A stretch of 32,661 nucleotides of DNA from Alphaproteobacteria bacterium RIFCSPHIGHO2_02_FULL_46_13. Its GTDB lineage: Bacteria; Pseudomonadota; Alphaproteobacteria; Micavibrionales; Micavibrionaceae. This document shows, in pieces, positions 5,412 to 17,523 of the stretch. A model generated the notes under the pieces. That model saw nothing but the letters and a program-made list of their open reading frames with translations, ran no database searches and had not been told where the DNA came from. The stretch covers positions 1-32,661 of the forward strand of contig MEMI01000010.1 in NCBI GenBank assembly GCA_001767915.1, written 5' to 3'. Every line of letters begins with the position of its first letter. The first letter of the stretch is position 1. The translations under genes and the position numbers were made by a program.

Positions 5412-6680
5412 CTACCAATTCTCACGAAGCCAGAGCTTGGCACGTTGCCAGATTGTCCCCGCTTCGACCGTTGCCATGATTTCCGCAGGCATTTCATTAA
5501 ACCGTTCTGTAACGTAATGGAGCAACCCTGCCGTTGCCGAAAACGCAGGGCCACTGACCGCATCGGGAAGACCTTGCAACCTGATTGGACGACCCAAGCG
5601 CACTTGTTTCTCGAGATATTTTTGGGAGAGTTCGCGAAGTCCCGGGATCTGGCTCGCGCCGCCTGTGAGTACGACGCGGCGACCAGCAATCGGCCCAAGG
5701 CCGCTATCAATCAGGCGGGAGCGTACCAGCTCCATCGTCTCTTCAATCCGTGGAGCAATAATGCTGACCAGATAGGAACGGGGAACATGGTTCGGGCTCA
5801 AGCTATCTTCCTCACCCAACGGGGGCACATCGATCAAATCTTTTTCATCGGTCGCGGTTGCAATCGCACTTCCGTATAATGTCTTCATGCGTTCAGCGGC
5901 GTGGATGGAGGTTGTGAGTCCGCGCGCAATATCGTTGGTCACATGTTGCCCGCCAACGGGAATCGCATCTGTATAAATCAGCTCACGTCCGTAAAAGACA
6001 GCGATAGAGGTTGTACCGCCGCCCATATCGACAACAGTACAACCCATATCCATTTCATCTTCGACAAGGCACGCAAGCCCCGCCGCATAAGGTGTGGAGC
6101 AAAGGGCGGTAATATCAAGGTGGGAGGATTGAATACAGCTCGCCATATTTCGGAGTGGCGCGATATTGCCCATCACCATATGGACATCGACATCCAGATG
6201 TTGACCATATAGTCCGCGCGGTTCTTTAATCCCCTCATGCCCGTCAATACGGTAAGCGGTCGGGATGGTGTGGATCAGTTCGACATCATTGCCGACCACC
6301 TGATCCTGCGCCTTGGCCAGCGCGCGGCGAATATCATTTTCGGTGACGGCAGAACCAAGAATTTGTACGCCCATATTCATGAGGCGGGAATGGGAATGGG
6401 TTGCGGGAACATTCACAATCACTTCGCGGAGCGGATAACCTTTGGTGACATCTGCTGCCATATTTTCTGCGGCATGAACGGCTTGCTTAATCGCGCCTTC
6501 GGCTAAGTCCAGATCAACAACAGTGCCAGATTTAATCCCTTGTGAAGCCTGATGCCCGATACCGATTAAATCAATATTGCCGATGTCGTCACGGATACGC
6601 GCGATGAAACAAGCGATCTTGGTTGACCCGATGTCCAACGCCGCTATCACTGACCCTTTTGGATGAAATTGTTTACTCAT
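5412..6680 (-). CDS. ftsA: Cell division protein FtsA
   Basis: An actin-like ATPase that tethers FtsZ to the inner membrane and recruits later division proteins. Over 422 residues it shows the phosphate-1 motif ALDIGSTKIACFIARI at the N-terminus, a SHS2/1C domain (GIKSGTVVDLDLA, then VNVPATHSHSRL), phosphate-2 CTVVDMGGGTTSIAVF and the adenosine motif VVLTGGASQIPGL. The C-terminal amphipathic membrane helix is TIWQRAKLWLRENW. The ATG at 6680 has AAGGGG at a normal distance; an upstream GTG at 6689 would abut that site and is less likely. It begins 12 bases after the ftsQ stop and clearly shares an operon with it. ftsZ does not follow; an AmpD-like amidase does. Confidence 0.97.
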   Translation of the reverse strand: MSKQFHPKGSVIAALDIGSTKIACFIARIRDDIGNIDLIGIGHQASQGIKSGTVVDLDLAEGAIKQAVHAAENMAADVTKGYPLREVIVNVPATHSHSRLMNMGVQILGSAVTENDIRRALAKAQDQVVGNDVELIHTIPTAYRIDGHEGIKEPRGLYGQHLDVDVHMVMGNIAPLRNMASCIQSSHLDITALCSTPYAAGLACLVEDEMDMGCTVVDMGGGTTSIAVFYGRELIYTDAIPVGGQHVTNDIARGLTTSIHAAERMKTLYGSAIATATDEKDLIDVPPLGEEDSLSPNHVPRSYLVSIIAPRIEETMELVRSRLIDSGLGPIAGRRVVLTGGASQIPGLRELSQKYLEKQVRLGRPIRLQGLPDAVSGPAFSATAGLLHYVTERFNEMPAEIMATVEAGTIWQRAKLWLRENW

Positions 6681-6692
6681 TAAACCCACCCC

Positions 6693-7547
6693 TTAAATAT
6701 TTTTCTGAGGGTGATAGGATGCTTGGTATTCTTCGACTGCGCCCGGTTCGGTCTGCACCACAATCCGCAATGGGTCGCGTAAATCGATTGATTGGATTTT
6801 ACGGTCCATCAATTTCGCCTCGCCCTGCGCGCTCGCTAAACGGCGGACAGCTTGGCCTAAATCATCTTCGGGTAATTTTACGGACACACCGTTTTTCAAA
6901 TATAAATCCCAACGGCGACCACCAATCCATTTGGCGGATTCAACGCGCGATCTTAAATCAGGTTCAACGGTGATCATGGATACTAAATCTTTCGCCTGTT
7001 TTGGCGCGTCATCCCCCACCAGAATCATCAGGTTTTTAAAACGTCCCAGATTCCCGTCAGATAAAACTTCGCCCTCAGAATCAATCACCGATAATTTACC
7101 TTGATGTTGCCACAAGGCCATCGGGCGGCGCTCTTCCAGACGGATGGCAATCGTGTCCGGCAAATGACGTTCAACAATTGCCGACTTGACCCATGTCACA
7201 TGTTCCAATTTATCCTTAATCGCGTCGATATCGGGCTCGAAAATCGATTGGCCTTTTTGAATATCGACGATGTATTTCAGGGCTTGGATATTTGCGTTCT
7301 GGCGCCCCTCCACCACAACATTTTGAACTTTGAATCCACTCTCAACCATCTGGGCATGAACACTACGCATCATTCGTCCTTCGATCTGGTCAAAATAGCC
7401 TGATGATGAAGCATAGGCAAAACTACCGATCACAATCCCCGTCACCGCAACCGCCAGACCAACACGTTTCGCCCAGTATTTTAACTGAGCATGTTGACCC
7501 GCGCGGCGGTTCATAATGGTTGTTCTGCGAGTTCCGGTTTTTGCCAT
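6693..7547 (-). CDS. ftsQ: Cell division protein FtsQ
   Basis: A bitopic inner-membrane protein that links cytoplasmic and periplasmic division factors, with FtsB and FtsL as usual partners. The 284 residues comprise a basic cytoplasmic N-terminus, a transmembrane helix at about 29-48 and a POTRA domain at about 72-140 (starting FKVQNVVVEGRQNANIQ and ending IAIRLEERRPMALWQHQGK). The beta domain follows, with SVIDSEGEVL and the later WIGGRRWDLYLKNGV and VKLPEDD segments typical of FtsQ. It is the first gene of the ftsQ-ftsA-amidase operon. The ATG at 7547 has no ribosome site and lies only 11 bases from a perfect TATAAT, which suggests a nearly leaderless mRNA. The divergent neighbour is the double ddl. 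Confidence 0.95.
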   Translation of the reverse strand: MAKTGTRRTTIMNRRAGQHAQLKYWAKRVGLAVAVTGIVIGSFAYASSSGYFDQIEGRMMRSVHAQMVESGFKVQNVVVEGRQNANIQALKYIVDIQKGQSIFEPDIDAIKDKLEHVTWVKSAIVERHLPDTIAIRLEERRPMALWQHQGKLSVIDSEGEVLSDGNLGRFKNLMILVGDDAPKQAKDLVSMITVEPDLRSRVESAKWIGGRRWDLYLKNGVSVKLPEDDLGQAVRRLASAQGEAKLMDRKIQSIDLRDPLRIVVQTEPGAVEEYQASYHPQKNI

Positions 7548-7564: not shown

Positions 7565-7694
7565 GAAAATAGTTGCGAACGGGCGAAAGCCCCTTAAAGA
7601 AGATTTACATTATACATTGAAATCACGAATTCCAAGGAATTTATTTTACACTTATTTTGGATTTATTTTGCGTTTATTTTGTGAGGCGCGTGTA

Positions 7695-7707: not shown

Positions 7708-10110
7708 ATGTCCAAATCTGATTCCTCTCTTAAAATTGCGGTTCTGTGTGGTGGCCCTTCACAAGAACGTGGTATTTCCCTCAATTCTGCGCGTTCGGTG
7801 ATTGATCATCTGACGGATGACCATATTGCCGTTATCCCCTTTTACGTTGACCCGCATCTTAATTTTTATGAATTGTCGCGGTCACAAATTTATTCGAACA
7901 CGCCGAGCGATTTTGACTTTAAATTGGCCGATACCCATAAACGCCTTGATGAAGACGGGCTGGGTACACGCCTGAAGGATTTTGACCTGATATTCCCCGC
8001 CATCCACGGAGCATTTGGTGAAGACGGAACTGTCCAGCAATTGATGGATGATTATGACCTGCCTTATGTCGGATCACCCGCCGAGACTTGCCGCAAGATG
8101 TTTAATAAAAACCGTGCGGCGTTTCTGCTTCGCAAGGCTGGGTTTCCGACATTGCCCTCCGTCACCCTCCGCCAAGGCAACCCGCATAACCGCGAAATGG
8201 TTGAGAAATTTTTTGCCGACAATAAATTATCCCGCGCCATCATAAAACCATCTGCGGGTGGATCGAGCATCGGCGTGTTTTCCGTGACCTCCGCTGACGA
8301 AGCCATGTCAAAACTCGAGAATAATATTTTCTCGAAAGAAATTGATTCATCAGGTTTATTAGAACCATTTTGCGAAGGACGCGAATTCACCGTCATCATC
8401 CTGCAAAATGATGCGGGTGAACCTGTCGCGCTTATTCCCACCGAAATCAGTATGAGTTATGCGGATAACGCCATTTTTGATTTCCGCCGTAAATATCTGC
8501 CGACCAATATGGTGTCATACCATTCCCCGCCACGCTTTACAGACAGCCAGATTGCAGAGATTCAAAAAAATGCCGAAAGCATTTTCAAATTGCTCGGCAT
8601 GCGCGACTTTGCGCGTCTTGACGGGTGGTTGATGCCCGATGGAAAAATCTGGTTTTCTGATTTTAACCCTATATCGGGCATGGAGCAAAATTCATTCATG
8701 TTCCAGCAAGGGGCGCGGATTGGTCTGTCGCATGTGGACATGATCCGCATGGCGGTGCGTTCCGCCTGTCGCCGCCACAATCTTACAATCCCCGAAACGC
8801 CTGTTCTATCCGGCGCACGCAAAAAAGTGCGCGTATTATTCGGCGGTCAATCTGCTGAACGTCAAGTATCATTGATGAGCGGTACAAATGTCTGGTTAAA
8901 ACTCCGCGCGTCCAAAGAGTTCGAGGCAGCGCCTTACTTCCTCTCCCCCTCTGGGCAAGTGTGGCAAATTCCTTATATGTTCTGCCTGTTCCACACGATT
9001 GAAGAAATTGTTGAAAGCTGTAAGAACGCGCACGATATTATCTCGAGACTCGAAGAGCTTGCGCCCAAAGTGCGCGCCCGTTTGGGACTCTCCCCCACCG
9101 TCACCTTCCCGCAACCTGTTCCGCAAGACCTGACAGATTTTATTGCCGATGCAAAATCCGATGATGCTTTTGTGTTTCTGGGGCTGCATGGCGGGATTGG
9201 TGAAGACGGCACCATTCAAGCGATGCTTGATAAGGCTGGCGTTCTTTATAACGGCTCCGGCTCTGTTGCCTCTGCCCTTTGTATGGATAAGAATGCGACA
9301 GGAGCCGCAATTACGGCGGCGAATATTCCGCATGTATCGACTGCGCTTAAACGTGCCGTGCGTATTCCCGAAGATTTTAAAAATTATAAAAATGATGATT
9401 ATCTTTCTTTTTGGGACGGGCTCTGTACCGCCCTCAAAACCAAAAGCTTTATCATTAAACCTCAATCAGACGGCTGTTCTGCGGGGGTTATTCATCTTCG
9501 TTCTGCAAAAGATATTCAAACCTATGTTGACCTTTTGAAAGACAATGCGCCGTTCATTCCCGCAGGAACTTTCCATGGACAAAAGGAACTGGTCGAGATG
9601 TCGCGGTCTGGATCAGCATCCTATTTAATCGAATCTTTTATCGAGACAGATGCCATTCGCATCAATCACACCACACTTTCCTATCAGGAAAAACAAGGCT
9701 GGGTCGAATTGACCGTTGGTGTCTTGACCAATGTTTCCAAGGGTGAATTTTATACACTCAACCCGTCCATCACCGTCGCCGAAGGCGATATGTTATCGCT
9801 TGAAGAAAAATTTCAGGGCGGGACAGGAATCAATATCACCCCTCCACCCGAATCGATTCTTACCAAAAAACAATGTGATCATTTGCGGGGTTCAATTGCA
9901 AAAGTTGCCAAAGCCTTGGGGATTGATAATTACGCGCGCATCGACCTGTTTTATAACCGCAAAACAGATGACGTGATCGTGATTGAGGCCAATACATTGC
10001 CAGGGCTAACCCCCGCCACTGTGATCTATCATCAGGCCTTGGCAGAGGTTCCGCCCCTCTTCCCGACCGAGTTTTTAAGCCTGCTGATCCACAGAAAGAT
10101 TGGCTTATAA
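7708..10110 (+). CDS. Tandem double D-alanine-D-alanine ligase (Ddl-Ddl fusion)
   Basis: Two complete ATP-grasp D-Ala-D-Ala ligase units in one 800-residue chain, against about 300-370 for normal Ddl, which makes the dipeptide end of the peptidoglycan stem. Unit 1 (about 1-365): GGPSQERGISLNSA (Glu20), HGAFGEDG, KPSAGGSSIG (Ser186), EGREFTV, RKYLPT (Tyr263), ARLDG (Asp305) and an altered metal loop SDFNPISGME (Asp318, Asn320). Unit 2 (about 372-800): GGQSAERQVSLMSG (Glu384), HGGIGEDG, KPQSDGCSAG (Cys590), VELTVGVL, EEKFQGG (Phe702), ARIDLF (Asp746) and the standard loop IEANTLPGLT (Glu760, Asn762). Unit 1 thus keeps the E-S-Y specificity triad of E. coli DdlB but has Asp for a metal-binding Glu. 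Unit 2 has standard metal ligands but an E-C-F triad. The frame runs through without a stop. I chose ATG 7708; a TTG at 7657 encodes a poor N-terminus. Confidence 0.93.
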   Translation: MSKSDSSLKIAVLCGGPSQERGISLNSARSVIDHLTDDHIAVIPFYVDPHLNFYELSRSQIYSNTPSDFDFKLADTHKRLDEDGLGTRLKDFDLIFPAIHGAFGEDGTVQQLMDDYDLPYVGSPAETCRKMFNKNRAAFLLRKAGFPTLPSVTLRQGNPHNREMVEKFFADNKLSRAIIKPSAGGSSIGVFSVTSADEAMSKLENNIFSKEIDSSGLLEPFCEGREFTVIILQNDAGEPVALIPTEISMSYADNAIFDFRRKYLPTNMVSYHSPPRFTDSQIAEIQKNAESIFKLLGMRDFARLDGWLMPDGKIWFSDFNPISGMEQNSFMFQQGARIGLSHVDMIRMAVRSACRRHNLTIPETPVLSGARKKVRVLFGGQSAERQVSLMSGTNVWLKLRASKEFEAAPYFLSPSGQVWQIPYMFCLFHTIEEIVESCKNAHDIISRLEELAPKVRARLGLSPTVTFPQPVPQDLTDFIADAKSDDAFVFLGLHGGIGEDGTIQAMLDKAGVLYNGSGSVASALCMDKNATGAAITAANIPHVSTALKRAVRIPEDFKNYKNDDYLSFWDGLCTALKTKSFIIKPQSDGCSAGVIHLRSAKDIQTYVDLLKDNAPFIPAGTFHGQKELVEMSRSGSASYLIESFIETDAIRINHTTLSYQEKQGWVELTVGVLTNVSKGEFYTLNPSITVAEGDMLSLEEKFQGGTGINITPPPESILTKKQCDHLRGSIAKVAKALGIDNYARIDLFYNRKTDDVIVIEANTLPGLTPATVIYHQALAEVPPLFPTEFLSLLIHRKIGL

Positions 10111-10116
10111 ATTTTA

Positions 10117-10133
10117 TTAAGAATCATTCTTAA
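10117..10133. promoter_or_regulatory. Fur-box-like palindrome 1
   Basis: TTAAGAAT, C, ATTCTTAA: a perfect 17-base inverted repeat of the 7-1-7 Fur type (compare GATAATGATAATCATTATC). It lies just after the double ddl stop and upstream of the promoter for the small gene at 10220. It has no following T-run, so a terminator role is unlikely. Confidence 0.65.
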
Positions 10134-10139
10134 TTGATG

Positions 10140-10156
10140 TTGACAATCATTCTCAA
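10140..10156. promoter_or_regulatory. Fur-box-like palindrome 2, overlapping the -35 element
   Basis: TTGACAAT, C, ATTCTCAA: an inverted repeat with one mismatch, centred 23 bases (about two helical turns) from palindrome 1. It covers the TTGACA hexamer, the layout expected for repression by iron-loaded Fur. Confidence 0.7.
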
Positions 10157-10167
10157 TTGGATATATT
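10140..10167 (+). promoter_or_regulatory. Sigma70 promoter of the small Fur-box gene
   Basis: A perfect TTGACA (10140-10145), a 16-base spacer and TATATT (10162-10167, 5 of 6). Start of transcription is expected near 10174, about 46 bases before the ATG. A short imperfect hairpin (ATCGG/CCGA) lies in the leader. This is the best promoter match I saw in the window. Confidence 0.7.
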
Positions 10168-10219
10168 TGCCCCCATCGGACAAACCGACGGTAAATATAT
10201 AAAAAATTGAGGATGTAAA

Positions 10220-10537
10220 ATGTCAGTAGTTACAATGAATTTCCCTGAAGAATTTCCTGAACTTGCAGGTATATGCCAAGAGGCCTTCGTTACCTCCGCC
10301 ACATCAGGCACACTGCCTGAATGTTCATTACGCACAACCCCTTCCTATGGCATCGTGACCATGGAAGATGGTGAAGTCAGTCAGGGGGCAAAAAAAACTT
10401 CTGCTGAGGCCGCATTTATCCTTGCGCATCTGGATGAAGAGCCCGTGCCCACTCCTGCTCCTGCCACACCGTCAACGCCACCGCGATGCATACCAAACCA
10501 TCGCCCTTGCAATGGTGAGCCAGCTTATTGCTGCTAA
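10220..10537 (+). CDS. Small protein of unknown function under a Fur-like operator, possibly frameshifted
   Basis: 105 residues from ATG 10220, with a clean GAGGA ribosome site at 10209-10213. I do not recognise the family. The first about 75 residues look like a folded, acidic soluble domain (NFPEEFPELAGICQEAF, later SAEAAFILAHLDEE) without signal peptide or membrane helix. A Pro/Thr/Ala linker follows. The last 18 residues in this frame (from PRCIPNH, ending CC) are Cys-rich and unlike the rest. In the +1 frame from about 10482 the sequence instead reads RDAYQTIALAMVSQLIAAKNN, a plausible helix that continues to a stop at 10598. Either the window has a frameshift near 10480 or the Cys-rich tail is real. 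Upstream elements imply expression under iron limitation. It converges on the AraC-type gene with 8 bases between. Confidence 0.65.
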   Translation: MSVVTMNFPEEFPELAGICQEAFVTSATSGTLPECSLRTTPSYGIVTMEDGEVSQGAKKTSAEAAFILAHLDEEPVPTPAPATPSTPPRCIPNHRPCNGEPAYCC

Positions 10538-13088: not shown

Positions 13089-15143
13089 CTATAATTTATC
13101 AGGTCTACGATCTTGTGAAAAGACGCGGTAAAGGTCTTTATCTGTTTGGTGGATGCTGTCTCCCGGATTATCCAAAATTGTAGCCTTGATAAAAACAACC
13201 AATTCTTTTTTGGAGACTTTGTCCCCTTGATTTCTAAATAAGCCCCCCAGAACAGGCACTTCACTTGCAACAGGAACCCCATCTTGGTTAGATTGAGTTA
13301 TGTCTTGCAAAAGCCCCCCCATTACCATCATTTGTTTATCACGCAAATTCAAAACAGAATCTGTTTCCTGAACATTCATCACAGGGATTGCGTTGGTTGC
13401 TCCTGCTGCATTGTTCAGCGCCAATGTAGGGTCATTCACAAAATCTACAATTTTTGTAATGGTTGGGCGAACCTGCATGGAAATTGCCCTCCTATCCAAA
13501 TCAATAGACGGAAGGACGTTAATCATCACACCTTCAGGAACTGTTTTGATAGTTGCGTCAAAAGTTGCAGGTGTATTTCCAGCCGTAGCACTAGTTACAC
13601 CAGGAGTCACCTCAATCTCAAAATAAACCTGATTCTTAGCAACATTCAAAACCGCAGATTGATTATTTAGAACCGATAGTCTTGGGCTGGCCAAAGCATG
13701 AACAGTTCCGAAACGGGATAGAGCGGACACAAAAGTTGATAAATCAGTCCCATTAAATCCAAAGCCAACAAATGAACCGCTCGCCGGATTAAGGTCTGGA
13801 GCTGTTGTATTCGCACGGAAATCGAAATCACCTATCGGCCTTAAGAGATTCCAATCAATCCCCGCAGCAAATTCATCACTAAGCGTTACTTCGAGAACCT
13901 TTGCCTCAATCAATACTTGTGATGTAGAGGTACGGCGCAAATCCTCGATATAAGAAGCCACCTGTTTATGAAGACGCTGATTGGCATAAACAGAAATAAT
14001 ACCAGCCTGCTTGTTGATTGAGTAAGCTGGTGTAAATTGCACTGCATTTGCCCCCCCAACAGACGTTCCAGTAGCCGCAGCCGTTGGCAAAGATTCAACT
14101 TTCAACACAGGGGCTTGCGCAGGTACAACAGGCTTAGACGACAAAGGTTGTGGAGCTGCGGCAGTCTCAGCGGCAGCAGTTGTCGATGTAGCAGACGGAG
14201 TTTCCGCCGTTACTGGAGGATTAGCTGTCGTTGTGGATGATGCATCCGCTGTTGCGGCTGCCGAATCCGCCGCAGGAGATGGCGATGCTAATGCTGTATC
14301 GGATGGAAGAGATACGGGCGATGATACATAATCTTCTGTTCCCGCTTGCGGAACAGTTGAAGACAATGCGGACGCATCAATAGGCGGCACGGGCGGCGTC
14401 ACAGGATTGCTGGACGTTAAAGAAATCGCTGGATCTTCATTAGTTTTCAAGTAGCTGGGGGACGCATTTGAAGCCAAAATTTGTTTCAAGTTTGCATCCA
14501 GCTCCCCCCAGAAATCACCTTCGGATTTGCTGGAAATATCAAATTTAGAACCTCCTCCAGATTTAGCATCCCCACTCGACGAAATGGAAACATCTGTATT
14601 AATAGTGCTATTATTACCGCGAACGATGTTTAAGAAATCGATTTTATAATTTTTACTATACGGAGTATCAAGCTCAATACGAATAGTGTTGTTATCAAAC
14701 TTGTAACGCAAACCTGAAATTTCGCAAATTCTATCAATCACTTCATCAAGGGGTCTGTTTCTGGCAGTAAAGATGATCGAGCCACTGATTCTTGGATCAA
14801 GCTCAATATCATAATCTGCCTGTTTCGACAGTTCGAAAAGCGCCTCTCTTAAAGGAATGCTCTGGTTGATTGACAATGAAACAAGTGGCGAAGATTTTAA
14901 GCTTTGAGAATCGTCAGCCACATAAGATTGAACTTCCGGAATCCCCATGGTATCGCCAGCAGCATCTGCACCAGGAATTTCGCGAGGAGCCATCGCATCG
15001 CGATAATCTTGCATCTCGCTATTTGTAGAACGATCTAATTTTGTAAAGTTATTTGCGAGGTCGCACGCGCTCATAGGCAAGAATGCGGATAATGCAAAAA
15101 GGCTGGTTAAGGCGGCCTTGCGATTGAAAGACTTGAAAATCAT
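13089..15143 (-). CDS. MshL/PilQ-like secretin lipoprotein
   Basis: The outer-membrane channel of a type IV pilus/MSHA-like or type II secretion-like machine, 684 residues. A signal sequence ends in LPMSAC, a plausible lipobox with Cys27, so it may be lipid-anchored and reach the outer membrane without a pilotin. An STN/N0-like domain follows at about 85-160 (INQSIPLREALFELSKQ, then DEVIDRICEISGLRYKF). Next is a very long Ala/Ser/Thr/Pro-rich insertion (about 245-355), a short N-domain (GIISVYANQRLHKQVASYIEDL) and the C-terminal secretin barrel (VLIEAKVLEVTLSDEFAAGIDW, through ETDSVLNLRDKQMMVMGGL to VPVLGGLFRN). ATG 15143 is preceded by GAGAA; an ATG at 15161 has no ribosome site. A 107-base gap separates it from pilU. 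Confidence 0.92.
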   Translation of the reverse strand: MIFKSFNRKAALTSLFALSAFLPMSACDLANNFTKLDRSTNSEMQDYRDAMAPREIPGADAAGDTMGIPEVQSYVADDSQSLKSSPLVSLSINQSIPLREALFELSKQADYDIELDPRISGSIIFTARNRPLDEVIDRICEISGLRYKFDNNTIRIELDTPYSKNYKIDFLNIVRGNNSTINTDVSISSSGDAKSGGGSKFDISSKSEGDFWGELDANLKQILASNASPSYLKTNEDPAISLTSSNPVTPPVPPIDASALSSTVPQAGTEDYVSSPVSLPSDTALASPSPAADSAAATADASSTTTANPPVTAETPSATSTTAAAETAAAPQPLSSKPVVPAQAPVLKVESLPTAAATGTSVGGANAVQFTPAYSINKQAGIISVYANQRLHKQVASYIEDLRRTSTSQVLIEAKVLEVTLSDEFAAGIDWNLLRPIGDFDFRANTTAPDLNPASGSFVGFGFNGTDLSTFVSALSRFGTVHALASPRLSVLNNQSAVLNVAKNQVYFEIEVTPGVTSATAGNTPATFDATIKTVPEGVMINVLPSIDLDRRAISMQVRPTITKIVDFVNDPTLALNNAAGATNAIPVMNVQETDSVLNLRDKQMMVMGGLLQDITQSNQDGVPVASEVPVLGGLFRNQGDKVSKKELVVFIKATILDNPGDSIHQTDKDLYRVFSQDRRPDKL

Positions 15144-15250
15144 GGCTTTTCTCGTGAACATTGAGCGGTTGATTGGAAAATGGGTAAGGACGTTCTGTTA
15201 ATTACAACAAAAGGATTCTACATCATTTTTTGAGCTTTTACTATAGGCTA

Positions 15251-16378
15251 TTACTCTGAAATTTTAAGAACGGACGTGTCCATTCCAGATAAGCCCCCAG
15301 AATTGCCGCCAATTTTAATTTTTTGAATTTTAAGGCGCATGTCGCTCGGCAAGTCGCTCTGCGAAATAGCCATTTCTTCGGAAATCACACCCTCTTCATA
15401 CAAACGAATCAACGATTGATCAAAGGTGATCATGCCAGACATTTCATTGGCTCCCATGACCTCGGAAATTTTAGAAATTTTACCATCAACAATCAGATCT
15501 CGCACCAAACCTTCGTTCAGCATGACCTCCATAGCTACGGCAAGCCCCCCGTTAATTGTACGAATCAAACGTTGAGAAATAATCGCCCTTAAATTCATAG
15601 CCAAGTTATTCCGAATTTGCCCGCCAGATTCCTCAGGGAACATATTTACAATTCTTTCAATAGCTTGGTACGCATTATTCGTGTGAATTGTCGACAGACA
15701 AAGATGCCCTGTTTCGGCGGCAGTCAAGGCCTGCTCCATTACCTCGCGGTCACGAATCTCACCAACTAAAATCGCGTCAGGACGCTGCCTCAACGCATTT
15801 TTTAACGCTATTGCGTAACTCTCTGTATCTACACCAACTTCTCGCTGCGTGATAACTGATTTTTTATGGTCGTGGAAATATTCGATTGGATCCTCAATCG
15901 TCAAAATATGCCCCGACGAATGGGTATTTCTATAGTCTATCATTGACGCGAGAGTCGTTGTCTTACCCGACCCCGTCATTCCAGTCACAAGAATAAGCCC
16001 TCGCTTTGTCAAAGCAAGCTTTTCCATGATTTGCGGAAGCCTCAGCTCACTAAAGCTTGGAATTCTTGAAATAATTCGGCGAATCACCAACGCCGATTGA
16101 AGCCTTTGCTGGAAGATGTTGACACGGAACCGACCATGAGGCCCCAGATCAATAGCCGTATTCAGCTCCATTTTCATTTCAAAATCACGACGCTGCCTCG
16201 TTGTCAAAATATGAGATAGCACATCATTCATTTGCGCCATGTCCATCGCTTTGTCCGATATATAAACCAAAGCATCATCGATGCGCATCGTTGGCGGAAC
16301 CCCTATTGTTAAATAGAGGTCGGTGGCATTTTTTCGCCCCATTTCAGTTAAATATTTTAATATGATTGGTTCTATCAA
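15251..16378 (-). CDS. pilU: PilU-like pilus retraction ATPase
   Basis: A 375-residue hexameric secretion ATPase that helps PilT depolymerise pilus fibres at the inner-membrane base. Walker A is GMTGSGKTT (133-141), the Asp box HILTIEDPIEYFH, Walker B DAILVGEIRDREVMEQAL and the His box AETGHLCLSTIHTNNA. The C-terminal part (VRDLIVDGKI, EVMGANEMSGMITFDQSLIRLYEEG, then the S/D-rich LPSDMRLKIQKIKI ending) is diagnostic for PilU rather than PilT. It overlaps the pilT stop by 4 bases (ATGA), so translation is coupled. pilTU as a pair argues for a dynamic, retractable type IV pilus and not a type II secretion system. Confidence 0.93.
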   Translation of the reverse strand: MIEPIILKYLTEMGRKNATDLYLTIGVPPTMRIDDALVYISDKAMDMAQMNDVLSHILTTRQRRDFEMKMELNTAIDLGPHGRFRVNIFQQRLQSALVIRRIISRIPSFSELRLPQIMEKLALTKRGLILVTGMTGSGKTTTLASMIDYRNTHSSGHILTIEDPIEYFHDHKKSVITQREVGVDTESYAIALKNALRQRPDAILVGEIRDREVMEQALTAAETGHLCLSTIHTNNAYQAIERIVNMFPEESGGQIRNNLAMNLRAIISQRLIRTINGGLAVAMEVMLNEGLVRDLIVDGKISKISEVMGANEMSGMITFDQSLIRLYEEGVISEEMAISQSDLPSDMRLKIQKIKIGGNSGGLSGMDTSVLKISE

Positions 16379-17523
16379 AATGAATACCCGCTATCTCCGG
16401 CTTCTGCCCCATGAGGGTCTGCGCCCGATGTCATTTTAGATTTCGCATTAGTAGCGGCAGAAACAGCAGGGTCTCTATCCGCACCATCCTCATCTGTCGA
16501 TTTGGCCAGAACAACTCTTGCCTCATCTTCATCAATTATCCCCCGCTCTAACAAATCATGAACGGAATCCTCCATAGTAATCATCCCATAGCGTGATCCC
16601 GTTTGAATCATGGAATACATCTGCGGAATTTGGTTTTCACGAATAAGGTTTCGCACCGCGTTTGTTCCCACCAGAATTTCAAAAGCAGCCACACGCCCTT
16701 TGCCCCCCACTTTTTTCAAAAGTGTTTGGGCAACAACCCCCTGCAACGAACTGGCAAGCATCGCGCGAATCATCTCTTTATCCCCTGTCGGGAAAACGTC
16801 GATAATACGGTCAACGGTTTTTGCAGCAGAGCTTGAGTGAAGTGTTCCAAAGACCAAGTGACCCGTTTCTGCGGCCGTTAATGCCAAAGAAATTGTTTCA
16901 TGGTCACGCATCTCCCCCACCAGAATAACGTCAGGGTCTTCACGCAATGAACTTTTCAGAGCTCTTGCAAAGCTGTGCGTATCGTTCCCCAATTCCCTGT
17001 GATTGACCAATGACTTTTTGGATGTGTGGAAGAATTCGACAGGATCTTCAATCGTCAGAATATGTTTTGGCTGCGTTTCGTTGATATGATTAATCATCGA
17101 TGCAAGTGTTGTTGATTTCCCTGAACCTGTTGGCCCTGTCACAAGGACAATCCCCTTTTCAAGATCAGAGAACCGTCTGATGACTGCAGGAAGATCAAGC
17201 TCTTCCATCGTTGGCACAACAGATGGAATGGTACGAAAAACAGCGGCAGAACCTTGACGGTTTGTAAACGCATTGACACGAAAACGCGCCTTCTCACCAA
17301 ATGAAATCGCAAAGTCGAGCTCCATATCTTTCTCGTAATCGGAACGCTGCTCGTCAGTCATAATGGAATATAACATCGCGCGAATAGTCTCGTTCGTCAG
17401 AACGTCAGATTTCAATCGTTTGAGACTACCATACACACGAACGATAGGAGGATTTCCTCCACTCAAGTGAAGGTCAGAGGCATCGTTTTGCATCACGAAA
17501 GCCAAAAGTTGCGTAATATCCAT
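16375..17523 (-). CDS. pilT: Twitching motility retraction ATPase PilT
   Basis: 382 residues. Walker A is GPTGSGKST (130-138), the Asp box HILTIEDPVEFFH, Walker B DPDVILVGEMRDHETISLAL and the His box AETGHLVFGTLHSSSA. The PilT-specific segment NAVRNLIRENQIPQMYSMIQTG, close to the canonical AIRNLIRE motif, is present. After residue about 345 there is a non-standard tail of roughly 35 residues rich in Asp, Ala, Ser and Gly. It drives pilus retraction with PilU. The ATG has an excellent GGAGG site. It is the first gene after a 128-base gap, so an internal promoter may exist, although I could not identify a convincing one. Confidence 0.94.
   Translation of the reverse strand: MDITQLLAFVMQNDASDLHLSGGNPPIVRVYGSLKRLKSDVLTNETIRAMLYSIMTDEQRSDYEKDMELDFAISFGEKARFRVNAFTNRQGSAAVFRTIPSVVPTMEELDLPAVIRRFSDLEKGIVLVTGPTGSGKSTTLASMINHINETQPKHILTIEDPVEFFHTSKKSLVNHRELGNDTHSFARALKSSLREDPDVILVGEMRDHETISLALTAAETGHLVFGTLHSSSAAKTVDRIIDVFPTGDKEMIRAMLASSLQGVVAQTLLKKVGGKGRVAAFEILVGTNAVRNLIRENQIPQMYSMIQTGSRYGMITMEDSVHDLLERGIIDEDEARVVLAKSTDEDGADRDPAVSAATNAKSKMTSGADPHGAEAGDSGYSF

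Follow-up and report, generated by a model that had tools for sequence, protein, structure and literature searches.

The stretch of DNA analyzed here (the window; 32,661 nucleotides of contig MEMI01000010.1 from Alphaproteobacteria bacterium RIFCSPHIGHO2_02_FULL_46_13, whose genome is a 2.13-Mb draft, 97.24% complete) carries a gene in which two D-alanine:D-alanine ligase (Ddl) units share a single reading frame, referred to below as the double Ddl. Ddl forms the terminus of the peptidoglycan stem peptide and is a target of D-cycloserine (PMC5717164). The gene starts at an ATG at 7708 and stops at 10110, and the mechanically called open reading frame (ORF) opens at a TTG at 7657. When the protein was compared with Pfam, two stretches each of Dala_Dala_lig_N (whole-protein score, 163.3 bits) and Dala_Dala_lig_C (140.9 bits) were found, all above cut-off and with N before C; in unit 1, the N domain spans residues 9 to 123 and the C domain residues 140 to 347. 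The ORF and the doubled domains bear out the original prediction of one 800-residue chain with two complete Ddl units. Against the NCBIfam model TIGR01205 (cut-off, 245.65 bits), the full double scored 327.5 bits and unit 1 by itself 197.1 bits, the latter being below the cut-off. The two halves are approximately 23% identical to each other, and the spacing between the positions equivalent to E180 and E187 of Escherichia coli DdlB is 24 residues in unit 2 versus 6 in both DdlB and unit 1.

The full chain was modeled with AlphaFold from 81 sequences, with a predicted local distance difference test score (pLDDT) of 91.2 and a predicted template modeling score of 0.90. In VIA-align, unit 1 of this predicted model matched LmDdl2 (1ehi_A) with a Z score of 39.6 over 343 residues (root mean square deviation [rmsd], 2.4). 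Since the VIA-align comparison of the whole model returned rows for unit 1 only, unit 2 was modeled separately, from 52 sequences (pLDDT, 92.7), and this predicted model matched 6u1f_A with a Z score of 37.7 over 319 residues (rmsd, 2.2). The least certain parts of both models include the stretch beside F702, and the loop at approximately residues 704 to 706 was of low confidence in the full-chain model. Judged by its domains, its TIGR01205 score, and its predicted fold, the window protein is a member of the Ddl family.

Table 1. Window coordinates of the double Ddl gene, its two units, four of its active-site codons, and two neighboring genes
Feature	Position	Strand	Description
Double Ddl gene	7708..10110	+	800 amino acids, stop included; from ORF and Pfam; architecture equal in 81 other doubles
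Unit 1	7720..8787	+	Residues 5-360; full Ddl fold; Tyr-type, Asp at metal Glu site
Unit 2	8815..10107	+	Residues 370-800; full Ddl fold; Phe-type
Y263 (unit 1)	8494..8496	+	At DdlB Y216; Tyr in 82/82 doubles
D318 (unit 1)	8659..8661	+	At DdlB metal ligand E270, within FSDFNPISGME; Asp in 82/82 doubles
C590 (unit 2)	9475..9477	+	At DdlB S150; Cys 76, Ser 6 among 82 doubles
F702 (unit 2)	9811..9813	+	At DdlB Y216, within KFQGGTG; Phe in 82/82 doubles
ftsQ	6693..7547	-	Divergent neighbor of double; POTRA_1 + FtsQ_DivIB_C
ftsA	5412..6689	-	TIGR01174

Residue equivalences were taken from a MAFFT alignment with E. coli DdlB as the reference. The aligned active-site positions are E20, H100, K134, K180, S186, K262, Y263, R303, D305, D318, N320, G324, and S329 in unit 1 and E384, H494, K528, K584, C590, K701, F702, R744, D746, E760, N762, G766, and T771 in unit 2. 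The triads E20/S186/Y263 and E384/C590/F702 both align to E15/S150/Y216 of DdlB, D318 of unit 1 aligns to E270, and D746/E760/N762 of unit 2 align to D257/E270/N272. This agrees with what had been proposed by eye, an E20/S186/Y263 triad with D318 in place of a metal-binding Glu in unit 1 and an E384-C590-F702 triad with the metal ligands D746, E760, and N762 in unit 2, and S186/Y263 and C590/F702, on which the comparison of the halves turns, occupy equivalent positions.

A scan of genome contigs with two unit 1 motifs, N[TN]P[SG]DFDF and [IM]HG[AE]FGED, matched 320 stretches, 276 of which were relatives, and the best 80 of these were kept; all 80 were doubles over nearly the whole query. Because two unit 1 motifs were used and only the best 80 of 276 relatives retained, this set leans to close relatives. 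The search for other Ddl-Ddl fusions thus yielded 81 distinct ones, that of genome G009 and the 80 contig loci (genomes are labeled G and loci L), three of which (L087 to L089) are records of G007, G002, and G026. These three were removed ahead of locus counts, leaving 77 loci, with L098 and L100 being nearly identical. The 82 doubles compared below are those of five G genomes plus the 77 loci; the gene of G021, cut by contig ends into pieces of 632 and 156 amino acids, was excluded. Close named relatives in the contig collection were from a "Rhodospirillaceae" metagenome-assembled genome (91% identical) and an alphaproteobacterial one (83%).

Across the 82 doubles, the differences between the two halves proved to be fixed or nearly so. 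In unit 1, the E270, Y216, and S150 positions were Asp, Tyr, and Ser in all 82, and in unit 2, the Y216, E270, and S281 positions were Phe, Glu, and Thr in all 82; the six doubles with Ser rather than Cys at the unit 2 S150 position form one Rickettsiales-type clade. The equivalents of E15, H63, K97, K144, K215, R255, D257, and N272 were invariant in both halves of every double, as were those of E187 (E226 in unit 1 and E667 in unit 2), and the unit 1 E68 position was Asp in a single double. As a control, we used 49 single Ddls of the order, 34 standard and 15 long, and Ser150, Tyr216, and Glu270 were present in every one. The standard rows include two second, DdlA-like genes (G005b and G016a), and fragments in G039 and G052 were excluded. 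Also left out of the control were nine Ddl-like rows of a "tandem" group, from adjacent ATP-grasp genes, in which the S150 position was Ser in three, Ala in two, Thr in two, Asn in one, and Cys in one, the Y216 position Trp in five, Tyr in three, and Phe in one, and the E270 position Glu in eight and Asp in one. The claim that the two halves carry complementary active-site changes is therefore strengthened, since the differences are fixed (that at Cys nearly so) across 82 doubles from several phyla. When the window species was compared with G007, unit 1 showed a nonsynonymous divergence (dN) of 0.032 and a synonymous divergence (dS) of 1.07, and unit 2 a dN of 0.072 and a dS of 1.378, for dN/dS ratios of approximately 0.03 and 0.05; in the comparisons with G002 and G009, silent sites were at or close to saturation. 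Both halves are under purifying selection.

No second Ddl was found in the window genome, where the five PF07478 matches were the two halves, a CarB-like protein (labeled by eye), a biotin carboxylase, and PurK; the four listed of seven TIGR01205 matches were the two halves and the same CarB-like and biotin carboxylase proteins, and the other three scored lower. A standalone ddl in this genome was rejected on these matches. Likewise, no further Ddl match above 100 bits was present in any of the six double-bearing genomes of the order or in 64 of the 77 genomes of loci L090 to L166, and the remaining seven members of the genus, which lack the double, carry an ordinary ddl. These absences are approximate because many carrier genomes are incomplete bins. 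The double mostly replaces the ordinary Ddl in its carriers. In G151, a Chlamydiia bin among the 13 exceptions, a second Ddl scoring 310 bits lies within an 857-amino-acid frame.

A third Ddl type was present in 15 of 58 genomes, that of the window and those of its nearest relatives (L015, L016, L013, L033, L025, L017, L018, L023, L028, L066, L020, L027, L021, L067, and L068). It is a monophyletic, single-unit type of 399 to 444 amino acids in which an NPxPGS motif replaces NTxPGMT and the S281 position is Gly or Ala. An FtsQ match lay near it at 10 of the 15 loci, and standard Ddls had FtsQ or MurB nearby at 32 of 34, indicating that three Ddl types occupy one slot in the order. Ddl-like ATP-grasp genes of another kind adjoin each other at L075 (1322-3261), L074 (1027-3533), L073 (1109-3053), and L072 (879-5080), in pairs or, in G033, as three; they lack His at H63 and have Trp, Tyr, or Phe at Y216, and in G025 the second gene is fused to a GNAT acetyltransferase. 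In G034 (96% complete) and G057 (100% complete, 6% contaminated), the Ddl model gave weak matches to distant ATP-grasp proteins only (best E values, 1.1e-12 and 1.8e-16), and these genomes possibly lack an ordinary Ddl.

On the ftsQ side of the double, the window contains ftsQ, ftsA, an amidase gene, a tRNA-Lys gene, coaD, two methyltransferase genes, and ftsZ, and on the opposite side a small ORF that matches nothing in Pfam and an AraC-type regulator gene. This ORF of 105 amino acids (10120-10537) lies just behind the double and, by eye, has a Fur-box-like AT-rich repeat upstream; a similar-looking ORF was seen, also by eye, in the equivalent place in G007 (L079, 3305-3706). A row of one secretin gene and two T2SSE-type ATPase genes at 13089-17523 (minus strand) belongs to a cluster for secretion or pili. 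In both G000 and G007 the double is divergent and beside ftsQ. The gene order is murC-murB-double-ftsQ-ftsA-ftsZ in G026 and murG-murC-murB-double in G021 (Mur names by eye and from MurC and MurB matches), compared to ddl-ftsQ-ftsA-ftsZ in G001, which has the ordinary gene. MurB and MurC lie directly upstream of the double in L114, L116, and L164 (and in L089, the G026 record), and an FtsQ match lies downstream in L114, L116, L125, and L145. The double can fill the murC-murB-ddl-ftsQ slot in some carriers.

A downstream ORF within 500 bases was present at 68 of the 77 loci, and 136 direct neighbors, 68 of them upstream, were compared with Pfam. Downstream, Ala_racemase_N was found in 17 of 68 and Ala_racemase_C in 16 of 68; a second method gave 18 downstream racemases, 16 of them on the strand of the double and separated from it by -13 to 112 bases. 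For doubles on the Patescibacteria side, this partnership makes D-Ala the likely substrate pool. An alanine racemase gene lies elsewhere in the genome in G000 and was detected in 37 of 50 other carriers (31 over cut-off), with no match in the other 13. The upstream neighbors included 10 M24 peptidases, 4 FtsA proteins, and 3 MurB_C proteins.

The double occurs in 6 of the 58 genomes noted above, namely, 4 of 11 in the genus plus G026 and G021 from other genera. Record titles of the 80 loci name Patescibacteria (Peregrinibacteria, Nomurabacteria, Kaiserbacteria, and others), Alphaproteobacteria including Rickettsiales, Parachlamydiaceae and other Chlamydiae, and a few Gammaproteobacteria; many carriers come from groups known for an episymbiotic or intracellular life. 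In wider draws, which overlap (the window was counted in two, and several genomes were already within the 77), doubles were found at E <= 1e-60 in 6 of 142 genomes from the order, in 7 of 385 from the class, and in 14 of 379 from the phylum to which G182 belongs. The distribution of the double is thus sparse and patchy, covering Alphaproteobacteria, Chlamydiota, Patescibacteria, and a few gammaproteobacterial bins. In the tree of the 82 doubles, phyla are intermingled, and four Pseudomonadota bins fall on the Patescibacteria side. Transfer is likely, although nearly all carriers are metagenomic bins and may be contaminated. In a tree of 71 rows, units 1 and 2 share a joint branch with support of 97/93, from which we do not claim an origin by one duplication because the program warned that the branch may reflect long-branch attraction. 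At L153 (5980-9546), the double Ddl carries a further C-terminal stretch of approximately 390 amino acids that looks by eye like a pyridoxal phosphate-dependent aminotransferase.

In one alphaproteobacterial bin (G263, 70% complete), unit 2 is encoded by itself, as a protein of 425 amino acids with its own ATG (L181, 1191-2468, minus strand), directly behind a DotU gene and, by eye, with Cys and Phe kept. Unit 1 was not among the two listed of its three TIGR01205 matches, which were the free unit 2 and a 452-amino-acid frame of biotin carboxylase size. The occurrence of unit 2 apart from unit 1 speaks for unit 2 as an independent enzyme, except if unit 1 sits in the missing part of that genome. 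No standalone unit 1 was found among the 27 matches listed in the three wider draws.

Taken together, we think it probable that this gene is the cell's D-alanine:D-alanine ligase and that its product is a covalent, asymmetric pseudo-dimer. Each half would bind ATP-Mg and couple D-Ala with a second acceptor. Unit 1, of the Tyr type, would be the main maker of D-Ala-D-Ala, feeding MurF, and unit 2, of the Phe/Cys type, would act as a second catalytically competent head with another acceptor preference or kinetic setting. The fusion would hold these unlike heads at a fixed 1:1 pairing, which an ordinary Ddl homodimer cannot do. Several observations weigh against this interpretation. Conservation in itself would not prove turnover in both halves, and more divergent doubles beyond the best 80 of 276 may break the invariance. 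Within the 82 doubles, the unit 2 G276 position was Ala in 27, the E180 position was Gln in one unit 1 and two unit 2 sequences, the unit 2 S151 position was Thr in two, and the unit 1 G153 position was not Gly in three. The double lies outside the ftsQ cluster in G002 and G009, all 16 same-strand racemase neighbors belong to the Patescibacteria side of the tree of doubles and not to that of the window, and an alanine racemase was not found in carriers G021 and G026. Finally, 13 of the 77 carriers (10 of 50 plus 3 of 27) have another Ddl-type match above 100 bits.

A division of products between the halves, with unit 1 making D-Ala-D-Ala and unit 2 D-Ala-D-lactate or another D-Ala-D-X so that two stem ends are possible, is a bolder special case of the asymmetric pseudo-dimer, and its odds overlap with those of that interpretation; in itself we regard it as doubtful. 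D-Ala-D-lactate synthesis by unit 2 is possible because, in lactobacilli, a Phe/Tyr switch at the Tyr216 site is reported to set depsipeptide versus dipeptide activity, with Phe deciding for D-Ala-D-lactate in lactic acid bacteria (PMC5996685), and Phe is at this site of unit 2 in all 82 doubles. A resistome survey of the candidate phyla radiation (CPR) speculates, from Van-like matches, on D-Ala:D-lactate or D-Ala:D-Ser precursors (PMC8651080). An LdhA-like gene lies near 2 of the 80 loci and a DdpX-like gene near 2 others (flanks being short at some), and the 136 direct neighbors include two D-2-hydroxyacid dehydrogenases (both upstream) and three M15 peptidases (two upstream and one downstream). 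However, no dehydrogenase or dipeptidase recurs as a partner, the recurrent one on the Patescibacteria side being alanine racemase, and in other respects the KFQGGTG loop of unit 2 does not resemble that of DdlB. Nor do M15 peptidases track the double, as they were found in one of four double-bearing versus seven of seven single-Ddl members of the genus and in neither G021 nor G026, and the genus-level M15 peptidase and alanine racemase data give no support for a D-lactate pathway. Unit 2 was also considered as a van-type ligase and rejected, since the whole chain is far under the curated cut-offs: named Van models (such as those for VanA, VanC, VanD, and VanG) gave 114.6 to 213.6 bits versus cut-offs of 495 to 775 among the listed 25 of 42 families. 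The fullest version, a two-headed ligase with unlike heads at an obligatory 1:1 ratio producing both D-Ala-D-Ala (Tyr head) and D-Ala-D-lactate or D-Ala-D-X (Phe head) stem ends, we hold to be quite speculative.

It is equally doubtful that catalysis is confined to one half, with the other serving as a structural or allosteric partner that binds ATP or D-Ala without turnover. Each half does deviate from the usual triad or set of metal ligands, conservation is somewhat lower in unit 2 (median identity to the window, 0.48 versus 0.54 in unit 1), and the poorly modeled loop lies in unit 2. Pseudo-enzymes, however, usually lose some catalytic positions, and here eight do not vary in either half across the 82 sequences, which come from several phyla; the stand-alone unit 2 in one bin also speaks for two enzymes. 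The earlier suggestion that one half may be regulatory finds no support in the sequences, because the main ATP, metal, and oxyanion residues are kept in both. A plain tandem fusion with two redundant D-Ala-D-Ala sites and no functional division seems unlikely. Ddls act as homodimers, which would make head-to-tail joining mechanically easy, but redundancy would permit drift, and the halves are distant in sequence with their differences fixed. An assembly or sequencing error merging two adjacent ddl genes, for which there is no evidence, is ruled out by the uninterrupted single frame of 81 other doubles from other assemblies, found in G002, G007, G009, and G026 as well as in the 80 contig loci.

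Duplicated but separate ddl genes have been discussed (PMC7691350), the double is unmentioned in the available excerpt of the CPR survey (PMC8651080), and no description of a Ddl-Ddl fusion was found in the open-licence PMC literature, covered chiefly by titles and the starts of abstracts. With its two dissimilar active sites and its occurrence across phyla, the conserved double offers a natural experiment in division of labor by Ddl and bears on the peptidoglycan stem ends of uncultured Patescibacteria and intracellular bacteria (PMC8651080 and PMC5814848). The double is a real, conserved, asymmetric two-headed Ddl, a variant that we did not find described and that falls within the known Ddl family.

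Among known systems, CarB, the large subunit of carbamoyl phosphate synthase, also has two tandem ATP-grasp units in one chain; it is not a Ddl, and the double gives no sign of two units acting sequentially on one substrate. The MurC-Ddl fusion of Chlamydiae (NF011171; PMC5814848) likewise joins a Ddl to a cell wall enzyme, with MurC as the partner where the double has a second Ddl. The Phe-type D-Ala-D-lactate ligases (LmDdl2 [1ehi] and lactobacillus Ddl) share Phe at the Tyr216 position with unit 2 only and are single-unit enzymes, whereas unit 2 adds Cys at Ser150 and a different loop. Closest are the DdlA/DdlB enzymes (TIGR01205; E. coli DdlB [2dln] and the Staphylococcus aureus and Thermus thermophilus Ddls), whose full fold and nearly full active site are found in each half and whose genomic slot is common to part of the double carriers. 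Compared to these single units of approximately 300 to 390 amino acids, the double has two unlike units per chain, one with Asp at E270 and the other with Phe and Cys at Y216 and S150.

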